This document shows positions 21,509 through 36,350 of a stretch of DNA of 37,281 nt, one piece after another. How positions within the stretch are numbered: position 1 is the first letter of the stretch; every line of letters starts with the position of its first letter. A program made the position numbers and the translations under genes. The stretch comes from an uncultured Verrucomicrobiales bacterium (GTDB lineage: Bacteria > Verrucomicrobiota > Verrucomicrobiia > Verrucomicrobiales > DEV007). Location of the stretch: positions 1 through 37,281 of the forward strand of contig CALLLI010000465.1 in assembly GCA_938082635.1 (NCBI GenBank), read 5' to 3'. The notes beneath the pieces were generated by a model, which worked only from the letters and a program-made list of their open reading frames with translations, searched no databases and was not told the DNA's origin.

Positions 21509-22687
21509 CTACGTGATCCGTGACGTCCTTGTATCTCGCACTTTAGCGCTGCGTAGCTGCTGCGGCGTCACGCCTCTCTGCCGTTTCAACACGTAGCCGA
21601 GGTAATTGTGGTGCTTAAAGCCGCAGCGCTCGGCGATGTCCGCGAAGGTGAGACCGGTTGTGCGAATCAAGTTCTCGGCCCGGCGCAGTCGTCGCTCTGA
21701 CAAGAACTCACGAAGACTTATCCCGAGAGCCTCACGGAAGCGAATCTGCAATCGGGTCTTGGATAGGCCCGTAGCCTTCGCAATGTCCTCATTGGTGATT
21801 GATTCGGCGAGATGCTCGCGCATGAACTGAATGGCGCTTCGCACTGCCGGATCAGAGATCCCTCGACTGTCAGATGAGTCGCGCACAACGATTTCGTTAG
21901 GCTGGACGCGGATCGAGTTCCCGTCGGGACGTTCGCCCGCGATCAATCGATCTAACAGATTCGCCGCTTCGAAGCCCACCCGATAGTGACCTCCTCGAGC
22001 GCTGGACAGATTCGGTGTGGCCACCTCACAAAGCGTGAGATCGTTGTCGACGCCGACCACGGCCACCTGTTCTGGGACCGTGATGCCGACCGCGCGAGCG
22101 GCCTCTAGCAGAATCAGGCCACGTTGATCGCTGCATACCATGATCGCCGCTGGCTTGGGTAACTCTGTCAGCCACGCCTGCATCTCGACAAAGTGCGCGC
22201 TGTCTCCCTCTGACTTGCCGCGCTGGGTATTGAAGGACGCGAAGCTTTCTCCGCTCGAAATGGATTTACGAAAGGCGATCTCCCTTCGCTGCGACCAGTT
22301 CTCGCCCGAGATTCCGTAGAAGCCGAAGTGAGCGAACTCCCGCTCCAGAAAGTGCCGAGCGACTCGCTGAGAGATCTTCTCATCATCCACGTGAACCAAT
22401 GGAAACTCATTGTCCGTCACCCCGAGCACGTCGACGACCGGTGTTTCCAGTTTCTTCAATCGATCGACCATCCCTTCATCCTGAATACGGGCAATGACCC
22501 CGTCTCCCTCCCAGGAATCGAACCACTCAGGCACCTCATCCTCAAGACCTCGAGCGGCGTGAAAGATCTCCCAGTTCCCCCTTTGTCGCGCAAACTGCGC
22601 AATGCCTTTCAAAATTTCCCGGCCAGACCCGAGAGAAGTTTCGACGAGAAGCGCGATACGCTTGTGTTTGCGAGCCGTGGACTTCAC
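21509..22687 (-). CDS. XylR-type transcriptional regulator (LacI-like sensor plus AraC HTH)
   Basis: This 392-residue protein equals E. coli XylR in length. Residues about 8-275 are a LacI/GalR-like periplasmic-binding fold (IALLVETSLGSGREILKGIA, AIMVCSDQRGLILLEAARA, VPEQVAVVGVDNDLTLCEVA). Residues about 290-385 are an AraC HTH pair (ITNEDIAKATGLSKTRLQIR and LTFADIAERCGFKHHNYLGY, then KRQRGVTPQQLR). The start is GTG at 22687. It would bind a sugar through the sensor domain and activate or repress nearby genes. It is divergent from galactokinase by 84 bases, so the galactokinase to sulfatase block is the obvious target; arabinose, xylose or galactose are candidate effectors. Confidence 0.9.
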   Translation of the reverse strand: MKSTARKHKRIALLVETSLGSGREILKGIAQFARQRGNWEIFHAARGLEDEVPEWFDSWEGDGVIARIQDEGMVDRLKKLETPVVDVLGVTDNEFPLVHVDDEKISQRVARHFLEREFAHFGFYGISGENWSQRREIAFRKSISSGESFASFNTQRGKSEGDSAHFVEMQAWLTELPKPAAIMVCSDQRGLILLEAARAVGITVPEQVAVVGVDNDLTLCEVATPNLSSARGGHYRVGFEAANLLDRLIAGERPDGNSIRVQPNEIVVRDSSDSRGISDPAVRSAIQFMREHLAESITNEDIAKATGLSKTRLQIRFREALGISLREFLSERRLRRAENLIRTTGLTFADIAERCGFKHHNYLGYVLKRQRGVTPQQLRSAKVRDTRTSRIT

Positions 22688-22704
22688 CGGTTCGATTTCT
22701 ACAT

Positions 22705-22720
22705 GATTTGGTCCGAAATC
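22705..22720. promoter_or_regulatory. Imperfect palindrome between regulator and galactokinase, candidate operator
   Basis: GATTTGGTCCGAAATC is a 16-base inverted repeat with six of eight pairs matching, inside the 84-base divergent gap. Position and symmetry suit a site for the adjacent XylR-type regulator, but nothing in the sequence proves it, and short AT-rich palindromes arise by chance. Confidence 0.25.
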
Positions 22721-22771
22721 TCAAGGGCACACTCTTGCTCTTGGTCTCCTTTGGGATTTTCATGGATCGAA

Positions 22772-24010
22772 ATGACAGCCCAAGTAGATCAGTTCCGAGC
22801 GCGGTTTGGCAGCGATCCGACCCTACGGATCGAGGCGCCAGGTCGGGTCAATCTGATTGGTGAGCACATTGACTATCTCGATGGTTGGGTGATGCCCGCA
22901 GCGATCGAATCGCGGATCACGCTCCTCGCCGCTCCAGGGTCAGCGGCTGGCGGCATCGAAATCTGGTCGGCTGAGCAAGGCGATTCCCAGCACGAACTCT
23001 CCGCCAGCGATTTCACCCCAAGGACAAATCCCGAAGAAACCTGGCTCAACTATCCCATCGGCGTCTTGGGCGCCTATGCTGAACATGGGGTCACCCTTGC
23101 TGCCTGCCGAGTCGCCATCTTCTCAACCGTTCCAGCCGGAGGCGGATTGAGCAGCAGCGCTGCTCTGGAGACTGCCATGGCTCTCCTCATTGAGGCGCTC
23201 AGCGGGGAAACTTGCTCCACTCGGGGCCGAGCACTCCGTTGCCAGAAGGCGGAACATGATTGGGTCGGCGTGCCTTGCGGCATCATGGACCAACTGTCGG
23301 TCGGTGCGGGGATCAAGGATCACGTTCTCCATATCGATTGCCTCACTCTCGACGTCGAAGCGATTCCTTTCCCCGCCGACATCCAAATGGTCATCGCGCA
23401 TAGCGGAGTGAACCACGCCCTAGCAGACGGCGAGTATGGCAAGCGGCGGCGAGACTGCGAGGCGGCCCTTGAGGAACTGGGCGCGGCCTCTTGGCGTGAG
23501 GTCACTCTCGAACTTGTGCAACAATGCCGCGACCAACTCGGTGAGCGCCTCTTCCGGAGAGCCAGGCACGCTGTGACCGAAAGGCAACGGGTCGCCGATT
23601 TCGCCACCGCCCTGAGGTCTGGCCATCCCGAGGAACTACCTGCGCTAATGCGAGCGGGGCACGACTCCCTCCGGGAGGACTACGAGGTCACGTGTCCGGA
23701 ACTCGACTTCCTTGTCGATGCCGGTTTCGAGTTCACGCCCTCGGGACACTTCGGCTCCCGAATGACCGGTGCAGGATTCGGCGGGGCGACCATCCATCTT
23801 GTTCACGACTCCGCAGCTTCTACTTACATCGAGCACCTTCGGTCGCGCTATCGTGAGGTCTTTGATCGAGATCTGAACTGCTTCGTCACCTCCGCCTCTG
23901 AAGGCGCCCATTGTACTACATTCACCTCATTGAAACCCACCCTGGAAAAGCGATTTCTTAACAACCGGCCCACTTCATCGATCAGAACCGGAAACTCTTG
24001 CACCGCCTGA
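22772..24010 (+). CDS. galK: Galactokinase
   Basis: This 412-residue protein starts at ATG 22772 (MTAQVDQFRARFG); the frame is open upstream but that sequence is non-homologous. All three GHMP-kinase motifs are visible: the galactokinase signature GRVNLIGEHIDYLDGWVMP, the P-loop-like VPAGGGLSSSAALETA, and GSRMTGAGFGG. The catalytic Asp lies in CGIMDQLSVGAG. The enzyme phosphorylates alpha-D-galactose at C1 with ATP in the cytoplasm, the first step of the Leloir route. About 30 residues follow the usual end (after FVTSASEGAHC), which is unusual. It is divergent from the XylR-type regulator and leads a run of same-strand glycan genes, tying that block to galactose-containing substrates. Confidence 0.93.
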   Translation: MTAQVDQFRARFGSDPTLRIEAPGRVNLIGEHIDYLDGWVMPAAIESRITLLAAPGSAAGGIEIWSAEQGDSQHELSASDFTPRTNPEETWLNYPIGVLGAYAEHGVTLAACRVAIFSTVPAGGGLSSSAALETAMALLIEALSGETCSTRGRALRCQKAEHDWVGVPCGIMDQLSVGAGIKDHVLHIDCLTLDVEAIPFPADIQMVIAHSGVNHALADGEYGKRRRDCEAALEELGAASWREVTLELVQQCRDQLGERLFRRARHAVTERQRVADFATALRSGHPEELPALMRAGHDSLREDYEVTCPELDFLVDAGFEFTPSGHFGSRMTGAGFGGATIHLVHDSAASTYIEHLRSRYREVFDRDLNCFVTSASEGAHCTTFTSLKPTLEKRFLNNRPTSSIRTGNSCTA

Positions 24011-24059: not shown

Positions 24060-27000
24060 ATGATTTCACTCAATCACTTTCGACTCCGTTCCTTACCGCT
24101 GGCGACCCTGCTTGCGGTCTTCTCTTCACTACTGGGCTTATGGATCGCCTCTGCGCAAGATCCCTTCGTGGATGAGTTTGACGGACCTGAGTTGGATGGG
24201 TCCTGGACGATCCTCGACAATGAGGGCGACACTCACATTGGCTTCAATGCCGCGGGCGAATACGAGATCGTTGATTCGCAATCGACGGCGGATGCGGGAC
24301 TGGCTAGGACCATGTCAGGGTCGGGCGATTTCACCGCTGATGCTTCGATTAGGCTGGAGAATTTCTTCGATGGCAATGTGGATTTCAAATTCCGATTTCT
24401 CGCCCCGAAATTCATGGAGTTGGTTTTCAATCAGAATAATTTCATGCGGGTCTTCTCCGGTGAACGCGGTGGCAATACCGTAACGGTCTCAGACTTCGGC
24501 TATGAGGAGGGCACACCGATGCACATTCGTTACTCATGGTCGGAAGCGGAAGGCACCTTGCGCATTGGTGTTGGGCTGAAAGATGAGCCAATGCGGTTGC
24601 TCACCACCATCGACGGCCTGGAGGGTTTTCAACCGAATCGTGCAGACCTCGTTCTCTTTAAAATTGGCGAGGGCGACCACCAACCGCGTCTCTTCATTGA
24701 CCGTTTCGAAATTCAAGACGTCGCTCTCCCAATCGGCATTCCGCCATTCGTAGACGACTTTTCCGGACCGGCACTCGCTGAAGGTTGGACACCACTCGAT
24801 AACGAAGAGGGTGCAACGCAGATCGGATTCTCCGACGGTATCTACGAGATCAGAGACAACCAAGAGGGTGGCGACGCTGGATTGCGTCGACCTGTTGGCG
24901 GCGTAGGAAGTTTCACTGCTAGTGCCAAGATCAAGTTTCTCGACTTCGCGGGATCCAACACAGATTTCAAATTTCGGTTCATTGGCACCGGCAAGTTCAT
25001 CGAAATCGTCTACAACAGTTTCGATGATATCCGGGTCTTTTCGCAGGAAATTGGCGACAATGTGGCGCGCTTCAACCAGATCGGCTTTGCAGATGGCGAT
25101 GTGTTAGATTTGAAGCTGGCCTTTGATGCTCTCACAGGCACCGCTCAGGTAGGCGTGGCGCAGAATGGTGGGCCGATGATCGTGCTCGCGGAAATTACCG
25201 ATCTGTTCGATTTCACCCCTAACAATGCCGACTTGCTCATGTTCAAATTTGGCGAGGGCAACGGCAATGCGCCTAGGTTGCAACTGGATCACTTTGAGAT
25301 CAGTGACGGCTTTCTTCCTGTGGACGTGCAACCCTTCATCGACGACTTTGACGGGCCCGAGTTGATGTCAGCTTGGATCGCTTTGGGATCGGAAGCAGAT
25401 CAACTGGGATTCAATGAGGACGGACAATACGAGATCAACGCCGCACAGAATCCTGAGAATGCGGGACTCCAGTTACGTCTCCCTGCTCCTGGGAGCATGA
25501 CGGCGGATCTTTCGGTAAAACTCAGCGACTTCGTCGATTCCCAATCGGAATTGCGCCTGTCCTTTCCTGGCCCTGGCGGCATCGACATCATCGTTGGGAG
25601 TACAGGCTCGCTTAAGGTGACCTCCGTAGACAAAGGTGATCTAGCAAACGTCGAGGACTTTACTCTCGCGGATGGCGATACGTTAGACCTTCGCTTTGCT
25701 TGGGATGCCGAGATCGAAGAGCTCGAGGTCGGCGCAGGAAAGAATGGCGAAGGCTTAGAATTGATCGTGGGCGAGTTTGAGTTTGAGAATCTCGATCCGC
25801 GCGTGATGGAGGTCGCTCTTTCGACAAGCGGCGGCGACGATAAATCGCCTAGCATGTTACTTGATAAGTTCAACGTCCGTCAAGGATTTGCCCGAGTCCC
25901 AGCAGAGCGCGTCGAGCCGTTTGCCGACGACTTTGATGGTCCCGCGTTATCCGATCGCTGGACCATTCTTGGCGAAGAAGAAGGAAGAGGATTTACAGAT
26001 GGTGCCTACCAGTTTACCGACCCCTCACAGTCCTCCGACGTCGCTGGCATCAGGACATTCCTACTCGGCGAAGGCAGTTTCACCGTCGATGCGCATGTCA
26101 CCTTCGACATGTTCACTGGCACCGGCTCAGACTTCAAATTCCGCTTCTTTGGCGGCCAGTTCATCGAACTCGTCCATAACAGCTTTGATGACGTCCGCAT
26201 GCACTCGGGTGAAAAGGGAGCGATCAGCCGTGTTGAGAATATTGGCATTGTGGATGTCGAGCCCGTGCAGTTTCGCTTTGTGTGGAATGAATCCTTAGGG
26301 CAAGCCCAGTATGGCGTCTTGATCGGTGAAGGGCCGTGGAAGATCATCGGCTCCGTCGCGGGACTCACAGAGTTCACTCCGAATGAAGTCGATATGGTGT
26401 TCTTTAAATTCGGCGATGGTGAAGCGCCGCAAATGTCGGTCGATCGTTTCGAGATCCGGGCCGGTGTGTTCGAGATGCCAACGGATCCTCCCATTCAGCT
26501 ATTTGTCGACCCGTTCGACGGGCCTGACCTTGAAGAGGGGTGGGCTTTGATTGACGAGAGCCCCGAGGCTCAAGTCGGGTTTGGTGCCAGTGTTTATGAA
26601 ATCCGGGATCCGTCCACTTCAGCGGGAAACTCCGGCATCCGACGCGCGTTCGAAGGCAAGGGCGGCAGCTTCACGGCGGAGCTCGCGCTTACGTTCGACG
26701 GATTCGCGGGCTCGAACACGGATTTCAAATACCGCTTCTTCGGCGGCAAGTTTATCGAAGTGGTCTATAACAGTTTCGACGACATCCGCGTGTTCTCACA
26801 AGAGCGCGGTGAGAATGTGAATAGCATTCAAGGCGTAGGCATCAGTGACGGCGACGCCGTTCGACTACGGTTCATTTGGGATGAATCGGCCAGCACGGCG
26901 ACCATTGGCTTGTCGATCAATGAGAACCCCATGGAAGTCATTGCTAAAATCGATGACTTGCAGGAGTTCGCCCCAGACACCGTCGACTTCGTCATGTTTA

Positions 27001-28553
27001 AGTTCGGTGAGGGCAACGGCAGCATTCCTGGTATATTGGTAGATTCGATAGACATTGCTCCTGGCGTGTTTCCCATCCCCGGTGATGAAGAGCCCATGGT
27101 CGAAGGATTCGCGGAGGCGTTTGATGGCCCCGACCTTCCAGAAGGCTGGTCAGTGCGGGATGACACGGCGGAAGCTCAGATTGGATTCACCGACAACGGT
27201 CAATACCAGGTGAATGAGCCTTCAACGTCAGAAAACGGCGATGCAGGCATCCAACGCGCCTTCACCAGTGGCGGAAGCTTCACTGCCGACCTGGAAATGC
27301 AATTCGAAGACTTCGCGGGATCGAACACCGACTTCAAGTTCCGCTTCTTCGGCGGCCAGTTTATTGAGCTTGTCTACAATAGCTTCGATGACGTTCGCGT
27401 CTTCTCAGGCGAGCTAGGTGACAATGTGAATCGCATCAATGGCGTTGGCATCTCTGATAACACTCCCTTGCATTTCCGCTTCATCTTTGATGCTGATACT
27501 GGCAATGCCACGTTTGGTCTTGCCATCGGTGATCAGCCCATGATGGAGATCGCCACGGCCGAGGGGCTGATGGAGTTCACGCCGAACACGGTCGACTTCG
27601 TGATGTTCAAATTCGGCGAGGGCAATGGCAACACGCCTAAGATGTTGATCGACAACTTTGAGATCCGTCCTGGCGTTTTCGCCATCCCAGAAATACAAAT
27701 GCCCGCAGAGGCCTTTGCTGATACTTTTGATGGTCCCAATCTTGTCGAGGGTTGGAACGTGCGTGATGAGTCGGCCGAGGCGCAGATTGGATTTACCGAG
27801 AACGGTCAGTATCAAGTGAGCGAGCCTTCCACGTCAGAGAACGGCGATGCCGGCATCCAACGTGCCATCACCACCAACGGCTCTAGCTTCACCGCTGACC
27901 TCGAAATGCAATTCGAAGACTTTGCGGGATCGAACACCGACTTCAAATTCCGCTTCTTCGGCGGCCAGTTTATCGAACTCGTCTACAATAGCTTCGACGA
28001 CGTCCGCGTCTTCTCCGGTGAGAAAGGTGAAAACGTCAATCGTATCGCCGGCCTTGGCATCACCGATAGTGTGCCTTTGCATTTCCGCTTCATCTTTGAT
28101 GCTGCGACCGGCAATGCCACGTATGGCGTTTCGATCGATGGAAGTGCGATGCAAGAGATCGCGACGGCTGAGGGCTTGTTGGAGTTCACGCCGAATTCAG
28201 TCGACTTCGTGATGTTCAAGTTTGGCGAAGGCAATGGCAACACCCCCAAGATGTTGATCGACCGCTTCGAAATCCGCACGGGGGTCTTTCCGTTAGATGA
28301 AGGAGGCGGCGATCGTCCCGCCATTCAGATTCTCGGTATCGATGTCTCTGGCGATGCTGGAAGCACGAGCACGATCACGTGGTCGTCCGCTGCTGACGAA
28401 ACCTACGATGTCGAATGGTCAGAGAACCTCGTCGATTGGAACGATCTCGCGGCAGGCGTCGAGTCTGCAGGAGAGGAAACGAGCGTCGACGATGCGGACA
28501 TTCCCGCAGAAGTGACGCAGCGCTACTATCGCATCGGACCAAGCGGCGGCTAA
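24060..28553 (+). CDS. Giant exported protein of seven tandem concanavalin-A-like (LamG-like) units
   Basis: This 1497-residue protein has a signal peptide ending about residue 32 (SLLGLWIASAQ) and seven units of about 195-202 residues beginning at residues 35, 229, 425, 620, 814, 1016 and 1218. Each unit opens with F-x-(D/E)-x-F-(D/S)-G-P-x-L and ends with a D-x-F-E-I strand. The better-conserved units share NTDFKFRFFGGQFIELVYNS, DDVRVFSGE and MFKFGEGNGN. Unit 3 is the most diverged and lacks the FKFRFFGG core. Units 6 and 7 are nearly identical. A C-terminal module (about 1415-1497) has ENLVDW and ends in RYYRIGP, like other Verrucomicrobial exported proteins. The jelly-roll pattern implies glycan binding or adhesion; no catalytic residues are apparent. 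Context between galactokinase and GH127 supports binding of an arabinose/galactose glycan (inference). Confidence 0.85.
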   Translation: MISLNHFRLRSLPLATLLAVFSSLLGLWIASAQDPFVDEFDGPELDGSWTILDNEGDTHIGFNAAGEYEIVDSQSTADAGLARTMSGSGDFTADASIRLENFFDGNVDFKFRFLAPKFMELVFNQNNFMRVFSGERGGNTVTVSDFGYEEGTPMHIRYSWSEAEGTLRIGVGLKDEPMRLLTTIDGLEGFQPNRADLVLFKIGEGDHQPRLFIDRFEIQDVALPIGIPPFVDDFSGPALAEGWTPLDNEEGATQIGFSDGIYEIRDNQEGGDAGLRRPVGGVGSFTASAKIKFLDFAGSNTDFKFRFIGTGKFIEIVYNSFDDIRVFSQEIGDNVARFNQIGFADGDVLDLKLAFDALTGTAQVGVAQNGGPMIVLAEITDLFDFTPNNADLLMFKFGEGNGNAPRLQLDHFEISDGFLPVDVQPFIDDFDGPELMSAWIALGSEADQLGFNEDGQYEINAAQNPENAGLQLRLPAPGSMTADLSVKLSDFVDSQSELRLSFPGPGGIDIIVGSTGSLKVTSVDKGDLANVEDFTLADGDTLDLRFAWDAEIEELEVGAGKNGEGLELIVGEFEFENLDPRVMEVALSTSGGDDKSPSMLLDKFNVRQGFARVPAERVEPFADDFDGPALSDRWTILGEEEGRGFTDGAYQFTDPSQSSDVAGIRTFLLGEGSFTVDAHVTFDMFTGTGSDFKFRFFGGQFIELVHNSFDDVRMHSGEKGAISRVENIGIVDVEPVQFRFVWNESLGQAQYGVLIGEGPWKIIGSVAGLTEFTPNEVDMVFFKFGDGEAPQMSVDRFEIRAGVFEMPTDPPIQLFVDPFDGPDLEEGWALIDESPEAQVGFGASVYEIRDPSTSAGNSGIRRAFEGKGGSFTAELALTFDGFAGSNTDFKYRFFGGKFIEVVYNSFDDIRVFSQERGENVNSIQGVGISDGDAVRLRFIWDESASTATIGLSINENPMEVIAKIDDLQEFAPDTVDFVMFKFGEGNGSIPGILVDSIDIAPGVFPIPGDEEPMVEGFAEAFDGPDLPEGWSVRDDTAEAQIGFTDNGQYQVNEPSTSENGDAGIQRAFTSGGSFTADLEMQFEDFAGSNTDFKFRFFGGQFIELVYNSFDDVRVFSGELGDNVNRINGVGISDNTPLHFRFIFDADTGNATFGLAIGDQPMMEIATAEGLMEFTPNTVDFVMFKFGEGNGNTPKMLIDNFEIRPGVFAIPEIQMPAEAFADTFDGPNLVEGWNVRDESAEAQIGFTENGQYQVSEPSTSENGDAGIQRAITTNGSSFTADLEMQFEDFAGSNTDFKFRFFGGQFIELVYNSFDDVRVFSGEKGENVNRIAGLGITDSVPLHFRFIFDAATGNATYGVSIDGSAMQEIATAEGLLEFTPNSVDFVMFKFGEGNGNTPKMLIDRFEIRTGVFPLDEGGGDRPAIQILGIDVSGDAGSTSTITWSSAADETYDVEWSENLVDWNDLAAGVESAGEETSVDDADIPAEVTQRYYRIGPSGG
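24162..28307 (+). repeat. Seven-fold tandem coding repeat of about 0.6 kb per unit
   Basis: Unit boundaries by codon are 24162, 24744, 25332, 25917, 26499, 27105 and 27711, with the array ending near 28307. Units 6 (27105-27710) and 7 (from 27711) show long stretches of near-identical DNA around the FKFRFF core, with most differences at third codon positions. Units 1 and 3 are the most diverged. This is the expected pattern of stepwise duplication at the 3' end under protein-level selection. Confidence 0.85.
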
Positions 28554-28623: not shown

Positions 28624-28657
28624 TTCCGGGCTTCGTTTGCCTACGAACACCAGAGCA

Positions 28658-31216
28658 ATGAATCGAGTTGCTCAAAGCAGCCAATCAATGGGACACTTCC
28701 GCAAGATGAAATCGAATCACCATCGAACACCGGGCACCTGCCTTGGCATGCTGATGCTAGCGTGGGCTCATTCGCCGCTCTATGGTGAAGACAAGCCTAA
28801 CCAAAGCGCCGACTATCCGCTAAAGCCCGTTCCCTTCAATAAGGTCGAAATGAAGAGCGACTTCTGGCGGCCACGGCTCGTGACCCAACGTGAAACCCTG
28901 GTGCCGTGGGCGTTCGAGCGCACGCAGCCTGGTGTCGAGCATCTCAAGGCGGCCCGCGACTTTCTCGATGGGAAGAAAGTGGAGGATCACCGTCCGCACC
29001 GCTTCATCGATTCAGATCTCTACAAAGTGATGGAGGGTGCCGCTTACTTGCTACAGCTGAAGCGTGATCCCGAGCTCGAAGCCAAGCTTGACGAACTCGC
29101 TGACATCATCACCAAAGCCCAACACAAGAACGGCTACCTCTATCCTTCCCACACGACGCAGGTTGGCAAGGCCAAGGACATGATGGGGGACACGCCCTAC
29201 ACCTTCGTGGTGCATAGTCATGAACTCTATAACGTGGGGCACCTCTACGAGGCCGCGGTTGCTTACTACCAGGCCACCGGCAAGAAGAAGCTTCTCGACG
29301 TCGTTGAGAAGAGCGCCACGCACATTAACAAAGTCTTCTTCGAAGGCGATCCTGACTACAACGATGGCAAGCCGATCCAGCAGGCTCCGGGTCATCAGGA
29401 ACTCGAACTCGCACTCGTCAAACTCTACCGCGTCACGGGCAAGAAGCTCTATCTAGACATGGCACGAAAATTCCTCGAGGTCCGTGGCATCACCTACGTT
29501 CCAGATGGCGAAGGCGTGATGTCGCCAACCTATGCCCAGCAACACAAGCCTGTCCTGGAGCAGAGCGAAGCCGTCGGCCATGCCGTGCGCGCCACCTATC
29601 TCTATTCAGCCATGGCAGACGTCGGCACCCTTACGGGAGAACCCGGCTACGGCAAAGCGTTAGATCGTATTTGGGGCAACATCACAGACACACGCATGCA
29701 CATCACAGGCGGCCTCGGAGCCGTGCATGGAATCGAAGGCTTCGGCCCGCAGTATGAACTGCCCAATGCCCACGCCTTCAACGAAACCTGCGCTGCCGTG
29801 GGCAATGTCCTGTTCAACTACCGCATGTTTCTCTTCCACAAAGATGCCAAGTACCTCGATGTTGCGGAAGTGGCTTTGCTCAACAATGTCCTGGCTGCCG
29901 TTAACCTGGAGGGGAATCGCTTCTTCTACGTGAATCCGTTAGAAGCTGACGGGAAATACCCCTTCAATCACGGTGTGGCAGAGCGTGCGCCTTGGTTTGG
30001 CACGGCTTGTTGTCCTTCCAATCTAGCACGCGTGATTCCGCAGGTGCCAGGAATGACCTTTGCCCATGACGACGACAATCTCTATGTCACGTTCTACTCA
30101 GAATGCCAAACCACCGTGAACATGGGTGGCGTCGACGTCGGGATCGAGCAGAAGACCGCTTACCCGAATGACGGCGAAATTAGCATTTCCGTCAGTCCTG
30201 ACAAAGCAGCGGAATTTCAGATGCATCTCCGCATCCCGACCTGGGCCCAAGATCGCTTCGTCCCAGGCGATCTCTACCGATACGTCGACTCCGCCCCGAG
30301 TACATTCACGCTTACCGTCAATGGCGATCCCGTGAAGACGGAACTCCAGAATGGGTTCGCCACGATTAAGCGAGAATGGCGCGCTGGTGATCATGTGGTG
30401 TTGAACTTACCCATGCCGCTGCGTGTGAGTGAATGCCATGAATCCGTGGAAGCAAACCGCAACCGCGTGGCTCTAACACGTGGCCCCTTCGTCCTCTGCA
30501 CGGAAGGCATCGACAACGGCGGCCCCACACAACGGTATTTCCTCTCTGAGAATCCAGATTCCTCGAAGACCAAAGTCACCACCAAGACCATCGATTCAGG
30601 CTCGTTCATCCAACTGAACATCCCGGCATCTGCTCTGACCAAAGACGGCGGGACGGAAAGCACCAACTTGGTTCTAACACCCTACTACGCCTGGAACAAT
30701 CGCGGCGTGGGCTCAATGACCGTCTGGTTGCCCCGCGATAAATCACTCGCCATCTTCGACCCACACGCCCTGCCCAAGGAGAGCATCTTCGCATCGCTCA
30801 AAGCCTCACACACCTCACCACTCGATACCGTATCGGCCATCGGTGACGGCATGGAGCCGCAGTGGTCTAGCGGAAACAAAGTGCCACGTTGGACGAGCCG
30901 ACCACAGAAAGGCAATCCGCAGCAGGTGGAAGCTCGTTTCGACAAGACCAAGAACATCCGCAGCGTTGGCGTCTACTGGATGCAGGACCGCGAAGATGTC
31001 CGCTTCCCCAAAGAGTGGTCGCTCGAAGTGGAGAAGGACGGCAAGTGGATCCCCTTCGAACTCTACACCACCGACCGCTACGACACTCGAGCAAATCAAT
31101 ACAACGTCGTTCATCCCGCAGCGCCACTGCAATGTGATGCCATCCGCATTCTCATGACGCCTCAGAAAGACGCCTGCGTCGGGATCCTGGAAGTCCAGGT
31201 CGCATTCGAAGAGTAA
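28658..31216 (+). CDS. GH127 beta-L-arabinofuranosidase with C-terminal discoidin-like domain
   Basis: This 852-residue protein starts at ATG 28658; ATG 28706 (MKSNHHRTPGTCLGMLMLAW) gives a neater signal peptide and may be the true start. The catalytic part (about 50-640) follows the (alpha/alpha)6 GH127/DUF1680 pattern: FWRPRLVTQRETLVPWAFE, QHKNGYLYPSHT, HELYNVGHLYEAAVAYYQAT and GGLGAVHGIEGFGPQYELPN. Numbering from 28658, E376 and C378 (NETCAAVG) plus C451-C452 (TACCPSN) match the Glu/Cys zinc-thiolate set of Bifidobacterium HypBA1, in which a Cys is the nucleophile. The last about 140 residues (VEARFDKTKNIRSVGVYWMQ, DAIRILM, ILEVQV) resemble an F5/8 C-type carbohydrate-binding domain, so the protein is longer than typical. 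It would release L-arabinofuranose outside the cytoplasm. Confidence 0.9.
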   Translation: MNRVAQSSQSMGHFRKMKSNHHRTPGTCLGMLMLAWAHSPLYGEDKPNQSADYPLKPVPFNKVEMKSDFWRPRLVTQRETLVPWAFERTQPGVEHLKAARDFLDGKKVEDHRPHRFIDSDLYKVMEGAAYLLQLKRDPELEAKLDELADIITKAQHKNGYLYPSHTTQVGKAKDMMGDTPYTFVVHSHELYNVGHLYEAAVAYYQATGKKKLLDVVEKSATHINKVFFEGDPDYNDGKPIQQAPGHQELELALVKLYRVTGKKLYLDMARKFLEVRGITYVPDGEGVMSPTYAQQHKPVLEQSEAVGHAVRATYLYSAMADVGTLTGEPGYGKALDRIWGNITDTRMHITGGLGAVHGIEGFGPQYELPNAHAFNETCAAVGNVLFNYRMFLFHKDAKYLDVAEVALLNNVLAAVNLEGNRFFYVNPLEADGKYPFNHGVAERAPWFGTACCPSNLARVIPQVPGMTFAHDDDNLYVTFYSECQTTVNMGGVDVGIEQKTAYPNDGEISISVSPDKAAEFQMHLRIPTWAQDRFVPGDLYRYVDSAPSTFTLTVNGDPVKTELQNGFATIKREWRAGDHVVLNLPMPLRVSECHESVEANRNRVALTRGPFVLCTEGIDNGGPTQRYFLSENPDSSKTKVTTKTIDSGSFIQLNIPASALTKDGGTESTNLVLTPYYAWNNRGVGSMTVWLPRDKSLAIFDPHALPKESIFASLKASHTSPLDTVSAIGDGMEPQWSSGNKVPRWTSRPQKGNPQQVEARFDKTKNIRSVGVYWMQDREDVRFPKEWSLEVEKDGKWIPFELYTTDRYDTRANQYNVVHPAAPLQCDAIRILMTPQKDACVGILEVQVAFEE

Positions 31217-31227
31217 CCGCAGCTCGC

Positions 31228-32670
31228 ATGATTCGTTTCTGCTTCCTTCAATATCTCTGTGTGGCGGCTCTGCTAGCAAAAGCAGTCGCCGAACCATCGT
31301 CTAAACCTAACATCATCTTCGTCCTCGCCGATGATCTTGGCTGGAGCGAGCTAGGTTGCTATGGCAACACCTTCAACGAAACACCCAATCTGGACCGCCT
31401 GGCCAACGAAGGCATGCGGTTCACGCACACTTACGCGGCCGCGCCCGTGTGTTCGCCTTACCGAGCAGCCTTCTTGACCGGCCAGGCTCCAGCGAGATTG
31501 GGAATCACCGACTTCTTGCGAGCCGACGCAAGTGATGGCTTGTCGCTGAAGCAAATGACTCTGCCAGAGATGCTGAAGCCGCATGGTTACGCCACCGGGA
31601 TGATCGGCAAATGGCATCTCACCGGCTACAAGCACCATGGTGCCGAGGTCGAAAGGCGTCCGACCGACCACGGGTTTGATTGGAATACTGGGAGCGAAGT
31701 CAAGTCGGTCGGCAATGGCGCCAACACCTGGCCTTACGTTTTCCGAACCCAGCCCATCCGTTGGATTGATCTCCCAAAGAATCGACTTGGAGATAACGAA
31801 TACCTCACAGATCGACTTAACCTTGAAGCGGTCGACTTCATCGAACGAAACAAGGATCGTCCGTTCTTTCTCTACCTAAGTCACTACGCACCGCACACCA
31901 TTCTCGACGGCCGACCCGATCTCGTCGACAAGTACTGCAAGAAACACGCTCCCGGCCCGTCCACACGAGAGAAGTGCTATCTGTGTGAGGATGCCAGATT
32001 GGGCAAAGGAGACCCTGGCCATCATTGGGCCGGTGACCACAATCCTCATTTAGCAGCCATGCTAGAATCGATCGACGACGGTCTGGGCTTGATCAGCGCC
32101 AAACTCAAGGAACTGGGCCTGACCAAGAACACCCTCGTGATCTTTTCCAGCGACAACGGCGGTGAGACCAACGTGACCTCCAATGCGCCCTTGCGCGGCG
32201 GCAAGAGCCAACTCTACGAAGGCGGCATTCGCGTGCCCATGATCATCCGATGGCCTGCCCGCATCCGGGCCAGCCAAGTGTCTGACATGCCCACCATCAA
32301 CACCGACTTCTACCCGACCCTCTTAGAAGCGACCAGCATTCAACCCGACCCAGCACAAACCCTCGATGGCATCTCAATCCTGAGCCACATAGAGAATGCG
32401 AGTGAAAAGCCAGACCGCGAATTCCTCGCCTGGCATTACCCTCTAGAAAAGCCGCACTTCCTCGGCGGCGTCTCGGCTGGAGCCATTCGGTCCGGTGATT
32501 GGAAACTGATCGAGAAGTTCGAAGCCGGTGATGATGAGCTTTTCCATCTGAAGAACGATCCCACCGAGTCAACCAACGTCGCCTCACAGAACCCAGAAAC
32601 CGTCACCCTGCTGAAGAAGAAGCTCGCCGACTGGCGACGCACTGTTGGGGCGAAAAGACCAAGAACGTGA
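31228..32670 (+). CDS. Exported sulfatase (arylsulfatase A-like, formylglycine type)
   Basis: This 480-residue protein has a signal peptide (MIRFCFLQYLCVAALLAKAVA). Features are NIIFVLADDLGWSELGCYG with metal-ligand Asp35-Asp36, TPNLDRLANEGMRFTHTYAA, and the active-site motif C75-S-P-Y-R79 (CxPxR), whose Cys is converted to formylglycine by an anaerobic or FGE maturase not present in this window. Also seen are MIGKWHLTGY, FSSDNGGETN and GGIRVPMIIRWPARI. It hydrolyses sulfate esters, probably from a polysaccharide. It lies 11 bases after the GH127 stop on the same strand, so the two are almost certainly co-transcribed, implying that the arabinose-containing target is sulfated. Confidence 0.93.
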   Translation: MIRFCFLQYLCVAALLAKAVAEPSSKPNIIFVLADDLGWSELGCYGNTFNETPNLDRLANEGMRFTHTYAAAPVCSPYRAAFLTGQAPARLGITDFLRADASDGLSLKQMTLPEMLKPHGYATGMIGKWHLTGYKHHGAEVERRPTDHGFDWNTGSEVKSVGNGANTWPYVFRTQPIRWIDLPKNRLGDNEYLTDRLNLEAVDFIERNKDRPFFLYLSHYAPHTILDGRPDLVDKYCKKHAPGPSTREKCYLCEDARLGKGDPGHHWAGDHNPHLAAMLESIDDGLGLISAKLKELGLTKNTLVIFSSDNGGETNVTSNAPLRGGKSQLYEGGIRVPMIIRWPARIRASQVSDMPTINTDFYPTLLEATSIQPDPAQTLDGISILSHIENASEKPDREFLAWHYPLEKPHFLGGVSAGAIRSGDWKLIEKFEAGDDELFHLKNDPTESTNVASQNPETVTLLKKKLADWRRTVGAKRPRT

Positions 32671-32696: not shown

Positions 32697-35600
32697 CTAG
32701 CGGCTTAAGGAGAACCGAATGCGCCAGTAGCCGGGAGTCTCGGGCACGAGATCATAGAGGAGGGTGGCGGTGCCGTCGCCATTGGTTTGAACATCGGTGA
32801 TGGTGATCTGTTCGGGTTCCCAAGCTTTGAGATCTTTCGAAAACTCCAGGGTCTCCGTCACACCGGAGGCGCGGAAGCGGACGCGGAGGGTGGTGCCATC
32901 ATAGACGGGCAACGCTTTGCTCGAAGGCACGCCTTCGGCTAACAAATCCACTCCCATGGCGAAGGCTCCGAAATGCGTGATGCCGTCCTGGTCAGGATCT
33001 CCTTCGGCATCGACAAGGCCGCGATCGGCTAACCAGATGTCGAATCCCGTGAGTTCACGTTCCCCTTCTGGTGCTCCGGGCGTGCCACCCACAGCGGCGC
33101 TGGGCTGCCAAGACCCGACCTCTCCATAGGCATCTGCGCCGACCGTTGTGGGATCGTTCAATGTGAGGGAAAAGCCTTCACCATCAGCAGACACCGGCCA
33201 GGGATCGGCATCGTCGTAGAGAAACTCCAAGATGGCATTGCCCGCGCCAAAGGCGAGCTTGAGGCGTTCGCCGCGATTGCTGAGCGAGAAGTTTGATTCC
33301 CACTCACCGAGAATCGGAAGGTCCGCGCCGTAGCGGGCTACCATGGCCGCGCGATTGGCCACGACGAGGCCGTAGGCGCCAGCCGCCAAGGATGTCCCTT
33401 CGATGAAATCGAAATCAACGCCTTTGGTGAAGCGCAAATCCGTGAGTTCGAGCGACGTGTTCCCGCGATTCCAAACTTCGAGGAATTCGAAATCAGATTC
33501 GTCAAAGCCACTTTCAGCTTCTGTGTCAGAGGCAGGCGCAGGATGGTACATCAATTCTGTCAGAACCAAAGAATCGCGCAAGGCCGCCCCGTCGGTGGGT
33601 TCTTTGGCGATGAAATGCAAGGATTCGGACCAATGGGAGACACGATTGGTGGTGTCCCAATGCCGAACGCGGATCCGATAGGCATGGCCCACTTTGAGGA
33701 GGTTGGTGGGAACTGAGACGGAAAGATCGGTCGAGCCATCGTTCGTCCAGAGAGAGGTGATCTCGTACATGCGCACGGCTTCAGGATTATAACTGGGAGC
33801 ATTGGCGTCTGTGACTTCAGCGACGCGCCACTCCACTTTCGCGAGTTCGGAGGGTGCGAAGATGGAAGCGGCTTTGTAGGCCGTCGATTGCACGGCAACG
33901 GCATCAATGGCCGCACTACTATTATCTGCAAAGGTGATGGTTGGCGTCTTCGCAATGGCCGCGTCCTCCATCATGTCATCGAGATGGGCAGCTCGCCCGC
34001 CAGCGCCCACATTGCCGCCGGGATAACTGAGGTTTCCCTCAAAAGCAAAGAGCTTCATGTCTTCCACCTTCGAAGCCAGGGTACCAGTATCCGTCGTACC
34101 CGTGGCCGTCGGAGCATCCCGCCACCGATCCCAGTCTGCAGGGTGGAAGTCATCGATCACGGCTGTGGCGTCATCGATAAGATTCGCGATCACGTCAGGC
34201 TGCCAGACCAGATCGCGGAATTCGCGGAGGGTGTTTCGAAACTCGACTTGAAATTCGTCTTTCCGTCGGATGGCATTTCCGGCATAGTCGAAGCCCTCAT
34301 TCCAACTCGGCCCCCAACTGGCATCCGAGTCGTAGGGCAATTGCCAGTATTGACCCAATTCATTGTTAGGGCTGGGCGCGAAGTACTGCACCATGTTCTT
34401 ATCCGCATCCGCCCAGTAATCGTAGTGGCGAATCGCTTCCTCCACGGCGGTGTAGCGATACCAGATGTCCCAGTTCACATGGGCTCGAAGCCAAGCGTCA
34501 TCGCGAGTGGGGCGCAGCATGGAAAAGAGGTTGGTGTAGTCTTCCGCATTCTGTGGCGCGTTCGGCGCTTGGTAACGCAATTGCTGGAGACCATCAGACG
34601 AGGAGCCTTTGCTCCCGACGCCTACGAAATTCTCGGACTGGTCGGTGAGTTTGTAGAGATTGCCCTTGGGCAGGCCACGGCTTTCGAGAAAGCGGACGTC
34701 GATGCGTTCTTGGGCCAAGCTCAAGCCATAGAAATCGCCACCATACTGGTCAGGCGCTTCTGCGGCGTCATCGATGACACGGAAATGGAACCAGTGGGTC
34801 CGCACAGCGGGAACCCCGAAGAGTTCCCATATCTGCCCATTCACGGTGTCCACGAGGCCGAAATTTCCGGGGCGATTGCGAATCCCGAACGTGCCGGTCA
34901 GGCGATTGCCTAACATCTTACTAGTCGTAAGCACGCGCCAGGTGGTTTCGTAAGGTTCCCCGCGATTGTTCTTGGCCCGGAAGTAGTTGCCTCGGTTGAA
35001 CTTGAATTTCATCGAGCGTTTGCCTCTAAGCTGATAACGCCCATTTCCGCCGCGCAATCGATACGAGATGTTGTCATAAACGCGCCCATCATAAACGATG
35101 GTGCCGCTCCAATTGTAGTAACTCCTAGCACTCATGGCAGAGCGCGGATGCTGATCGCGACTGTTGTAAGCCAGGCACTGCATCCAATTCTCGTTGGTTG
35201 TGAGCAAGTGATAAGTGGGGAGCTCTTGCAGGAGTTCCGCCGAATAGACATGCCCATTTCCCTGGGAAGAATCTTCTGAGGCAACGTAGTCAGGCACTCC
35301 GTCGTAGACAAAGAAGGCGAAGTTCAGCGAGGGATCATCTTTGAAAGGGGCGCGAACTTCGTTTCCCTCGCCGTCCTCCGCCGTGATGTAGTAGCGGACA
35401 AGGGTGCGGTTCGCCTGGGCTGGCAAGGTCACGGTGTAAATCGCGTCATTGTCAGTATCTTCATGGGCACCCTCTGGATCGAGCGAGGTCATGGGTTCGC
35501 TCGGCCAACTTCCGGTGAAGAGACCCTCTGCGTAACCAGCACTCATCCGACGCTCTATGCTGGGATCAGCCAGAAGTGCAGCAACCGAGTACGGAGTGAA

Positions 35601-36287
35601 GGCTGGGATGTAGTCGCCAGCTTCGACGATGAGGTAATGCAAGACGACATTCGTCACGCCGTCCAGGTCGGTGATCTTGACTGAGATGGTGGTGTCTTCG
35701 CCAGACATAGGAGTGCTGGGATCGTTTGCCACTTGGCGAATGTTAGGCGGCGCGTTGTCTGTCAACACACTGTTCGCGGCTCCTGGGGTGGGTTCGCCAA
35801 GGGACGGTCGCCAGGAACTTCCCAGATCATTGTCCAAGGCGGCGTTGAGCAGTTCCATCGACGGGCCGTCACCCGCCGGCGCAATCGGCCAAGGAAAGCG
35901 GACTTCAAAGTCGACCTCATCGATCACTTTGTCATCGGCACCTCGCAAAACCACACGTTCCCCATCACTGCTCAGTCGACCCGCCCAAGGACCAACGACG
36001 ATGTCAACTCCTTGAAAACGTGGGCTCGACGGTTCAAGCGCCACCACAAGGTAACCGCCAGGATCGATGGGAGCGGAGCCTTCGGGAAAGGTGTAGGTGG
36101 CCGCGCCAGAAAGTCGCCCGCCTGACAGATCAACAGCAGCGTCTCCAGAGTTGTGAAGTTCGATAAACTCGTCATTCAGCCCAGGCGCGATCGGGTCATA
36201 GTGGATCTCATTGATGATGATCTCCGCCCGCAACGAGATGGCGCATGACCACAGCATGGCCGCGAGAAGAAGTGTGAGGGATTTCAT
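32697..36287 (-). CDS. Large exported LTD-CotH-LTD protein
   Basis: This 1196-residue protein starts at ATG 36287 (MKSLTLLLAAMLWSCAISLRA signal peptide), not at the longer frame start at 36329. Order: lamin-tail domain 1 (about 22-150, IIINEIHYDPIAPGLNDEFI), Ig-like linker (VKITDLDGVTNVVLHY), CotH-kinase-like domain (about 380-670; SYRLRGGNGRYQLRGKRSMK, with a DxD-type PYDSDASWG), a fibronectin-like spacer, lamin-tail domain 2 (LVLTELMYHPAPA), and a C-terminal module with LEFSKDLKAW ending GYWRIRFSLSR. CotH-family enzymes are secreted protein kinases in Bacillus and some other organisms; activity here is not established. It converges on the sulfatase gene with only 26 bases between stops. It may be a cell-surface assembly or modification protein. 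Confidence 0.88.
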   Translation of the reverse strand: MKSLTLLLAAMLWSCAISLRAEIIINEIHYDPIAPGLNDEFIELHNSGDAAVDLSGGRLSGAATYTFPEGSAPIDPGGYLVVALEPSSPRFQGVDIVVGPWAGRLSSDGERVVLRGADDKVIDEVDFEVRFPWPIAPAGDGPSMELLNAALDNDLGSSWRPSLGEPTPGAANSVLTDNAPPNIRQVANDPSTPMSGEDTTISVKITDLDGVTNVVLHYLIVEAGDYIPAFTPYSVAALLADPSIERRMSAGYAEGLFTGSWPSEPMTSLDPEGAHEDTDNDAIYTVTLPAQANRTLVRYYITAEDGEGNEVRAPFKDDPSLNFAFFVYDGVPDYVASEDSSQGNGHVYSAELLQELPTYHLLTTNENWMQCLAYNSRDQHPRSAMSARSYYNWSGTIVYDGRVYDNISYRLRGGNGRYQLRGKRSMKFKFNRGNYFRAKNNRGEPYETTWRVLTTSKMLGNRLTGTFGIRNRPGNFGLVDTVNGQIWELFGVPAVRTHWFHFRVIDDAAEAPDQYGGDFYGLSLAQERIDVRFLESRGLPKGNLYKLTDQSENFVGVGSKGSSSDGLQQLRYQAPNAPQNAEDYTNLFSMLRPTRDDAWLRAHVNWDIWYRYTAVEEAIRHYDYWADADKNMVQYFAPSPNNELGQYWQLPYDSDASWGPSWNEGFDYAGNAIRRKDEFQVEFRNTLREFRDLVWQPDVIANLIDDATAVIDDFHPADWDRWRDAPTATGTTDTGTLASKVEDMKLFAFEGNLSYPGGNVGAGGRAAHLDDMMEDAAIAKTPTITFADNSSAAIDAVAVQSTAYKAASIFAPSELAKVEWRVAEVTDANAPSYNPEAVRMYEITSLWTNDGSTDLSVSVPTNLLKVGHAYRIRVRHWDTTNRVSHWSESLHFIAKEPTDGAALRDSLVLTELMYHPAPASDTEAESGFDESDFEFLEVWNRGNTSLELTDLRFTKGVDFDFIEGTSLAAGAYGLVVANRAAMVARYGADLPILGEWESNFSLSNRGERLKLAFGAGNAILEFLYDDADPWPVSADGEGFSLTLNDPTTVGADAYGEVGSWQPSAAVGGTPGAPEGERELTGFDIWLADRGLVDAEGDPDQDGITHFGAFAMGVDLLAEGVPSSKALPVYDGTTLRVRFRASGVTETLEFSKDLKAWEPEQITITDVQTNGDGTATLLYDLVPETPGYWRIRFSLSR

Positions 36288-36350
36288 GATATCGAATGCT
36301 AGAATGCTTGGGCAAGCGTACGGAATCAAGAAAGCATTGACCTAAGTGAG

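Follow-up and report, generated by a model that had tools for sequence, protein, structure and literature searches.

A seven-unit array of predicted concanavalin-A-like domains in a putative polysaccharide utilization locus of an uncultured Verrucomicrobiales bacterium

The analyzed stretch of 37,281 nucleotides from an uncultured Verrucomicrobiales bacterium (hereafter, the window) encodes a large array protein (24060-28553, plus strand) whose seven repeated units, as judged from their sequences, constitute a domain family of Verrucomicrobiota that is absent from the protein-family databases searched; no earlier description of the array or of the unit family was found in the literature searched. 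We consider it fairly likely that the array protein is exported, has no catalytic activity, and binds polysaccharide multivalently as part of a locus for a sulfated, probably galactose-containing glycan, with six intact sites and with unit 3 acting as a spacer or scaffold. The turnover of sulfated glycans by Verrucomicrobiota is poorly annotated. For one domain family of this group that had no annotation, the present analysis defines the signature residues by name and models the fold. It also finds the family in loci that recur together with sulfatases, galactokinase, and glycosidases, and uncovers in the same loci an unannotated family of glycosidase-like enzymes.

The array gene is a single open frame of 1,497 residues with an ATG start. 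A signal peptide was recognized by eye in its translation (residues 1-32; 24060..24155, plus strand), the N-terminus being MISLNHFRLRSLPLATLLAVFSSLLGLWIASA followed by Q, with predicted cleavage after ASA. The opening-motif search places the seven unit starts at residues 36, 230, 426, 621, 815, 1017, and 1219; by self-alignment, the units are 194-202 residues long (typically ~195) and share 27-80% pairwise identity. Unit 1 (24165..24746), unit 2 (24747..25334), unit 4 (25920..26501), unit 5 (26502..27107), and unit 7 (27714..28313), all on the plus strand like the two remaining units, are defined by self-alignment, HMM, and tree, the latter placing unit 1 in a position-specific ortholog group. 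The degenerate unit 3 (25335..25919) is defined by self-alignment, tree, and signature strings, and unit 6 (27108..27713) by self-alignment, AlphaFold2, Foldseek, and DALI-scale comparison. Units 6 and 7 form the closest pair (80% identical), unit 7 being a close duplicate of unit 6. The units are acidic and have no cysteine. A query of ~1.6 units (27366-28340 of the window) matches other parts of the array ORF with E-values from 1.7e-88 to 6.4e-56, thus the repetition is far beyond chance. Comparison of two species indicates purifying selection on all units (dN/dS 0.055-0.11), with a value of 0.11 for unit 3, 0.055-0.074 for the other units, and 0.059 for the adjacent GH127 gene.

An earlier note on this DNA had described a seven-unit array in one exported protein, located beside a glycosidase and assignable to no named Pfam family, and all three points are borne out: the ORF carries a signal peptide and seven units, the next gene is assigned to GH127 by Pfam, and neither Pfam nor NCBIfam offers a family above its cut-off. 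The same note placed the motifs FDGP, DFKFRFFGG, and GEGNGN in each unit, which is correct for units 6 and 7 only. Unit 5 is nearly complete (DFKYRFFGG, GEGNGS), unit 4 has GDGE in place of GEGNGN, unit 2 opens with FSGP and has DFKFRFIGT, and unit 1 carries DFKFRFLAP and GEGD; in unit 3, most of the noted motifs are gone (ELRLSFPGP, no GEGN). Pfam-A searches with the whole array and with every single unit gave best scores far below the cut-off, and the NCBIfam search with the array returned nothing above it. The profile of 40 units matches peanut lectin in the PDB weakly (E 0.0055 over 61 positions), followed by a GH43-type beta-xylosidase (E 0.11). A PHROGs search gave short, weak matches only, and the matches in a viral structure library include ConA/LamG-like phage proteins, with specificity no better than that of the PDB search. 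Profile-profile comparison with single-sequence templates detected no relation of the units to the window protein 1-2094, which contains a Laminin_G_3 domain, or to the DUF1080-like end of the GH127 protein from genome G001.

Arrays were identified in three of the 75 genomes of the family, namely the window's genome, G001 with seven units, and G023, where two units lie at the end of a contig; a fourth genome, G693, encodes one single-unit protein. Other genome collections add three six-unit arrays (L031, L032, and L033) and single-unit proteins in L034, L035, L046, G414, G1003, G1006, G1010, G1038, G1052, and G1053, where G1003 corresponds to L134 and G1006 to L132. This survey of copy number, which had been proposed in the earlier note, thus yields arrays of six or seven units as well as single-unit proteins. 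No array other than those of the window's genome and G001 was seen to have a seventh unit. On the phylogenetic tree, units 1-5 cluster by position across species, suggesting that the array is old and that its positions have separate histories.

The units are characterized by a conserved polar signature of seven residues, six of which (D75, K77, R79, E87, N91, and R97 in the numbering of unit 6) fall within the segment D75-R97 (27330..27398, plus strand), whereas the seventh, K168, lies outside it. Signature strings were computed for 40 units and for 14 further ones. In all 49 units other than unit 3, which come from arrays, single-unit proteins, and enzyme-fused proteins and diverge down to ~24% identity, D75, K77, R/K79, E87, N91, and R97 are invariant, with one masked X at position 91; position 168 is occupied by K in 43 of these units, R in three, and E in three. 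The alternation of these residues along neighboring strands, rather than coordinates, places them probably on one face of the unit. The signature is mostly lost from unit 3 in all five full-length orthologs (ERSDGKT, EHRENST, DRRQGRN, QTREGET, and AIREGES), yet these units keep F5, L10, W14, G26, Y33, G47, and mostly P159. The loss of most of the signature from unit 3, whose fold residues are retained, is more suggestive of a ligand role of the signature than of a structural role. Unit 3 would thereby provide a natural site-loss unit, a negative control built into the array for any binding test. The putative site has many charged residues and few invariant aromatics, unlike most sugar-binding modules of the stacking type.

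The AlphaFold2 model of unit 6, built with 40 related units, is all beta (pLDDT 94.2, pTM 0.90). Foldseek retrieved 388 PDB matches for this model at E <= 0.001, headed by legume lectins (2gnb, E 3.9e-8) and by a C-terminal GH43 domain (5jox) and also including GH131 and lichenase structures. In the DALI-scale comparison, the highest scores belong to BT_1020 residues 416-614 (Z 18.9), GH43A (18.3), and an engineered lichenase (18.0), with ERGIC-53 at 17.5; the first few of these are less than one Z unit apart and are regarded as tied. Based on the model and on both sets of matches, the predicted fold of the unit is a concanavalin-A-like two-sheet beta jelly roll. The single-unit prediction and fold search called for previously therefore agree with the fold that had been proposed, with Z up to 18.9 to solved members. 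This fold by itself gives no function. Domains with ConA-like folds are also known as catalysts, as binders of protein, and as purely structural elements.

The genes surrounding the array encode a XylR/AraC-type sugar-responsive regulator (21509..22687, minus strand; Pfam), a galactokinase (22841..24010, plus strand; TIGR00131, 261.5 bits vs. the cut-off of 226.65), whose start within the ORF 22328-24010 is uncertain, a GH127 glycosidase with a C-terminal F5/8 type C domain (28637..31216, plus strand, start codon uncertain; Pfam), an S1-type sulfatase (31228..32670, plus strand; PF00884, E 8.5e-65), and a protein combining LTD and CotH-kinase-like domains (32697..36329, minus strand; Pfam). 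In the window's genome (G000, 6.3 Mb), the sulfatase family PF00884 is matched 108 times, some of the matches being fragments of one gene. GH127 adjoins the array in five of the six orthologous loci (the window, G001, G023, L031, and L032), and the stretch examined around the L033 array contains no GH127. This GH127 is present in eight of the 75 family genomes, including all three with arrays; no array was found in four genomes carrying relatives with 69-73% identity (G716, G707, G012, and G021), so the array is not essential to GH127. The G012 locus, with gene identities partly read by eye from N-termini, comprises a regulator, galactokinase, aldose-epimerase-like and transporter-like genes, GH127, sulfatase, and an enzyme of ~740 residues. 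Similar sets of genes accompany the units in more distant genomes. The stretches of G1003 and G1006 each encode an LTD/CotH protein and two additional proteins with units; G1003 also has a galactokinase, a XylR/AraC regulator, and S1 sulfatases there, and G1006 an aldose 1-epimerase and an MGH1-like glycosidase. LTD and CotH-kinase-like proteins near unit-bearing genes of distant genomes are located at L132 10678-14844, L134 5796-9974, and L135 1774-5430.

The specificity of GH127 is not readable from its family membership. The closest solved relative of the window enzyme is 6ex6 (E 4.9e-159). Both beta-L-arabinofuranose and aceric acid were considered as links for this enzyme; the latter is not supported by the NCBIfam aceric acid hydrolase model, whose score is 411 against a cut-off of 950. 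Three GH127 enzymes from Zobellia act on carrageenan oligosaccharides (PMC5698469). The G001 GH127 protein (L018 7061-10201) has an extra C-terminal domain that by eye resembles DUF1080/3-keto-disaccharide hydrolase and is missing from the window GH127.

The ~740-residue enzyme occurs in 14 of the 75 family genomes. In L032, G1006, G1010, and G1003, it is fused to one N-terminal unit and to the C-terminal module described below, and in G012 and G707 a version without the unit is encoded two genes away from GH127. Members of this enzyme family are located at L032 7499-10612 (minus strand), L066 10658-12901, L132 14673-17963, and L134 1287-4499. No sequence relation to a Pfam, NCBIfam, or PDB entry was detected for it. 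Its AlphaFold2 model (pLDDT 53) is of too low quality for a classification; the Foldseek matches of this model are mostly (alpha/alpha)6 glycosidases and phosphorylases, and the enzyme is a candidate for a new glycosidase family.

Taken together, the glycan loci, the fusion of a unit to an enzyme, and the invariant polar set that is eroded in one unit point indirectly to multivalent glycan binding; the case for an accessory role in it is based chiefly on the catabolic genes that accompany the units. We propose that the protein would present seven ConA-like jelly rolls, six of them with a conserved D-K-R-E-N-R-K polar site contacting sugar, whereas unit 3, having mostly lost the site, would probably be a spacer or scaffold. 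The locus, comprising the XylR/AraC regulator, galactokinase, GH127, S1 sulfatase, and LTD/CotH protein, may serve the utilization of a sulfated, probably galactose-containing polysaccharide, and the array, through avidity, would keep chains of the polymer close to GH127 and the sulfatase. Inferred in this proposal are sugar binding as such, the location of the site, the identity of the substrate, and the notion that the array assists GH127.

Enzymatic units are one of the two leading alternatives. Each intact unit could represent a new ConA-fold lyase or hydrolase with the charged residues as its active site, so that the array would be a series of tandem catalytic domains. Invariance of the polar set down to ~24% identity, in single-unit and array proteins alike, is typical of active sites; moreover, many of the top fold matches are GH16-type enzymes, and exported single-unit proteins exist. 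However, no known catalytic motif was found: the GH16 motif E-x-D-x-(x)-E is absent from all 35 non-unit-3 units scanned, and a single EFDFE turned up in the same scan in G001, where it lies in the degenerate unit 3. The units also resemble accessory modules in that they neighbor other enzyme domains or are joined to them, and six or seven catalytic copies in tandem would be unusual, thus we regard tandem enzymes as unlikely. The more specific version, in which the invariant D-K-R-E-N-R site is catalytic on a sulfated polysaccharide and, of the position-specific units of the array, six are active and one is dead, is slightly less probable.

Another alternative is a surface or matrix adhesin or structural protein, whose units would attach to glycans on the surface of the cell itself or of a host and keep cells on particles, nutrition being of secondary importance. 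Its plausibility depends in part on the ~75-residue C-terminal module of the array protein (its last 79 residues; 28314..28550, plus strand), which is distinct from the units, follows the pattern TITWSS...YDVEWSENLVDW...YYRI, and has no significant Pfam match. This module has 57 matches in the window's genome at E <= 0.01; 19 of 30 inspected matches end within two residues of the stop codon, and most of the others precede a further C-terminal segment. It is possibly a sorting or retention module of exported proteins, and, being common to many proteins of the genome, it could be a surface-retention signal in a protein that is indeed a large exported repeat protein. Related single units, in L034, L035, L046, L132, and L133, belong to proteins that by eye end in a PEP-CTERM-like tail; the array protein has no such tail by eye and ends in YYRIGPSGG. 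Nothing specific favors the surface adhesin suggested in the earlier note, as inspection by eye revealed no motif for anchoring to the cell surface, a role that the C-terminal module could nevertheless have, and the company of a regulator, galactokinase, GH127, and sulfatase is that of a catabolic locus; we therefore consider an adhesin doubtful. Least probable of all is a purely structural repeat in which the charged residues stabilize the sandwich without any ligand: the purifying selection on unit 3, which lacks most of the signature, would allow a non-ligand role, but this unit keeps its fold residues without most of the signature, which at the sequence level seemingly is not needed for the fold.

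The preferred reading, a multivalent glycan-binding accessory protein, can be compared with several known systems. In GH43 enzymes (B. ovatus GH43A, 5jow/5jox; xylosidases 5z5d and 6ms3), the ConA-like accessory domain shares the jelly roll of unit 6 across 177-178 residues (Z 17.8-18.3, 9-11% identity) and, like the units, accompanies a glycosidase; however, it is fused to the GH43 catalytic domain, whereas the array units match no Pfam family. The ConA-like domain of BT_1020 (5mqr, residues 416-614) resembles unit 6 with Z 18.9 over 171 residues at 8% identity, but BT_1020, a GH142 beta-L-arabinofuranosidase (PMC7263609), contains a single such domain inside an enzyme, unlike the array. The legume lectins and the ERGIC-53/Emp46p-type lectins have the fold in common with the units, yet their family profiles are not matched by the units, and the profile match to peanut lectin is weak and covers ~60 residues. 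Finally, GH16-type glucanases and laminarinases share the fold of unit 6 (Z ~16-18) and are distinguished by their catalytic E-x-D-x-(x)-E motif, which the scanned units other than unit 3 lack.
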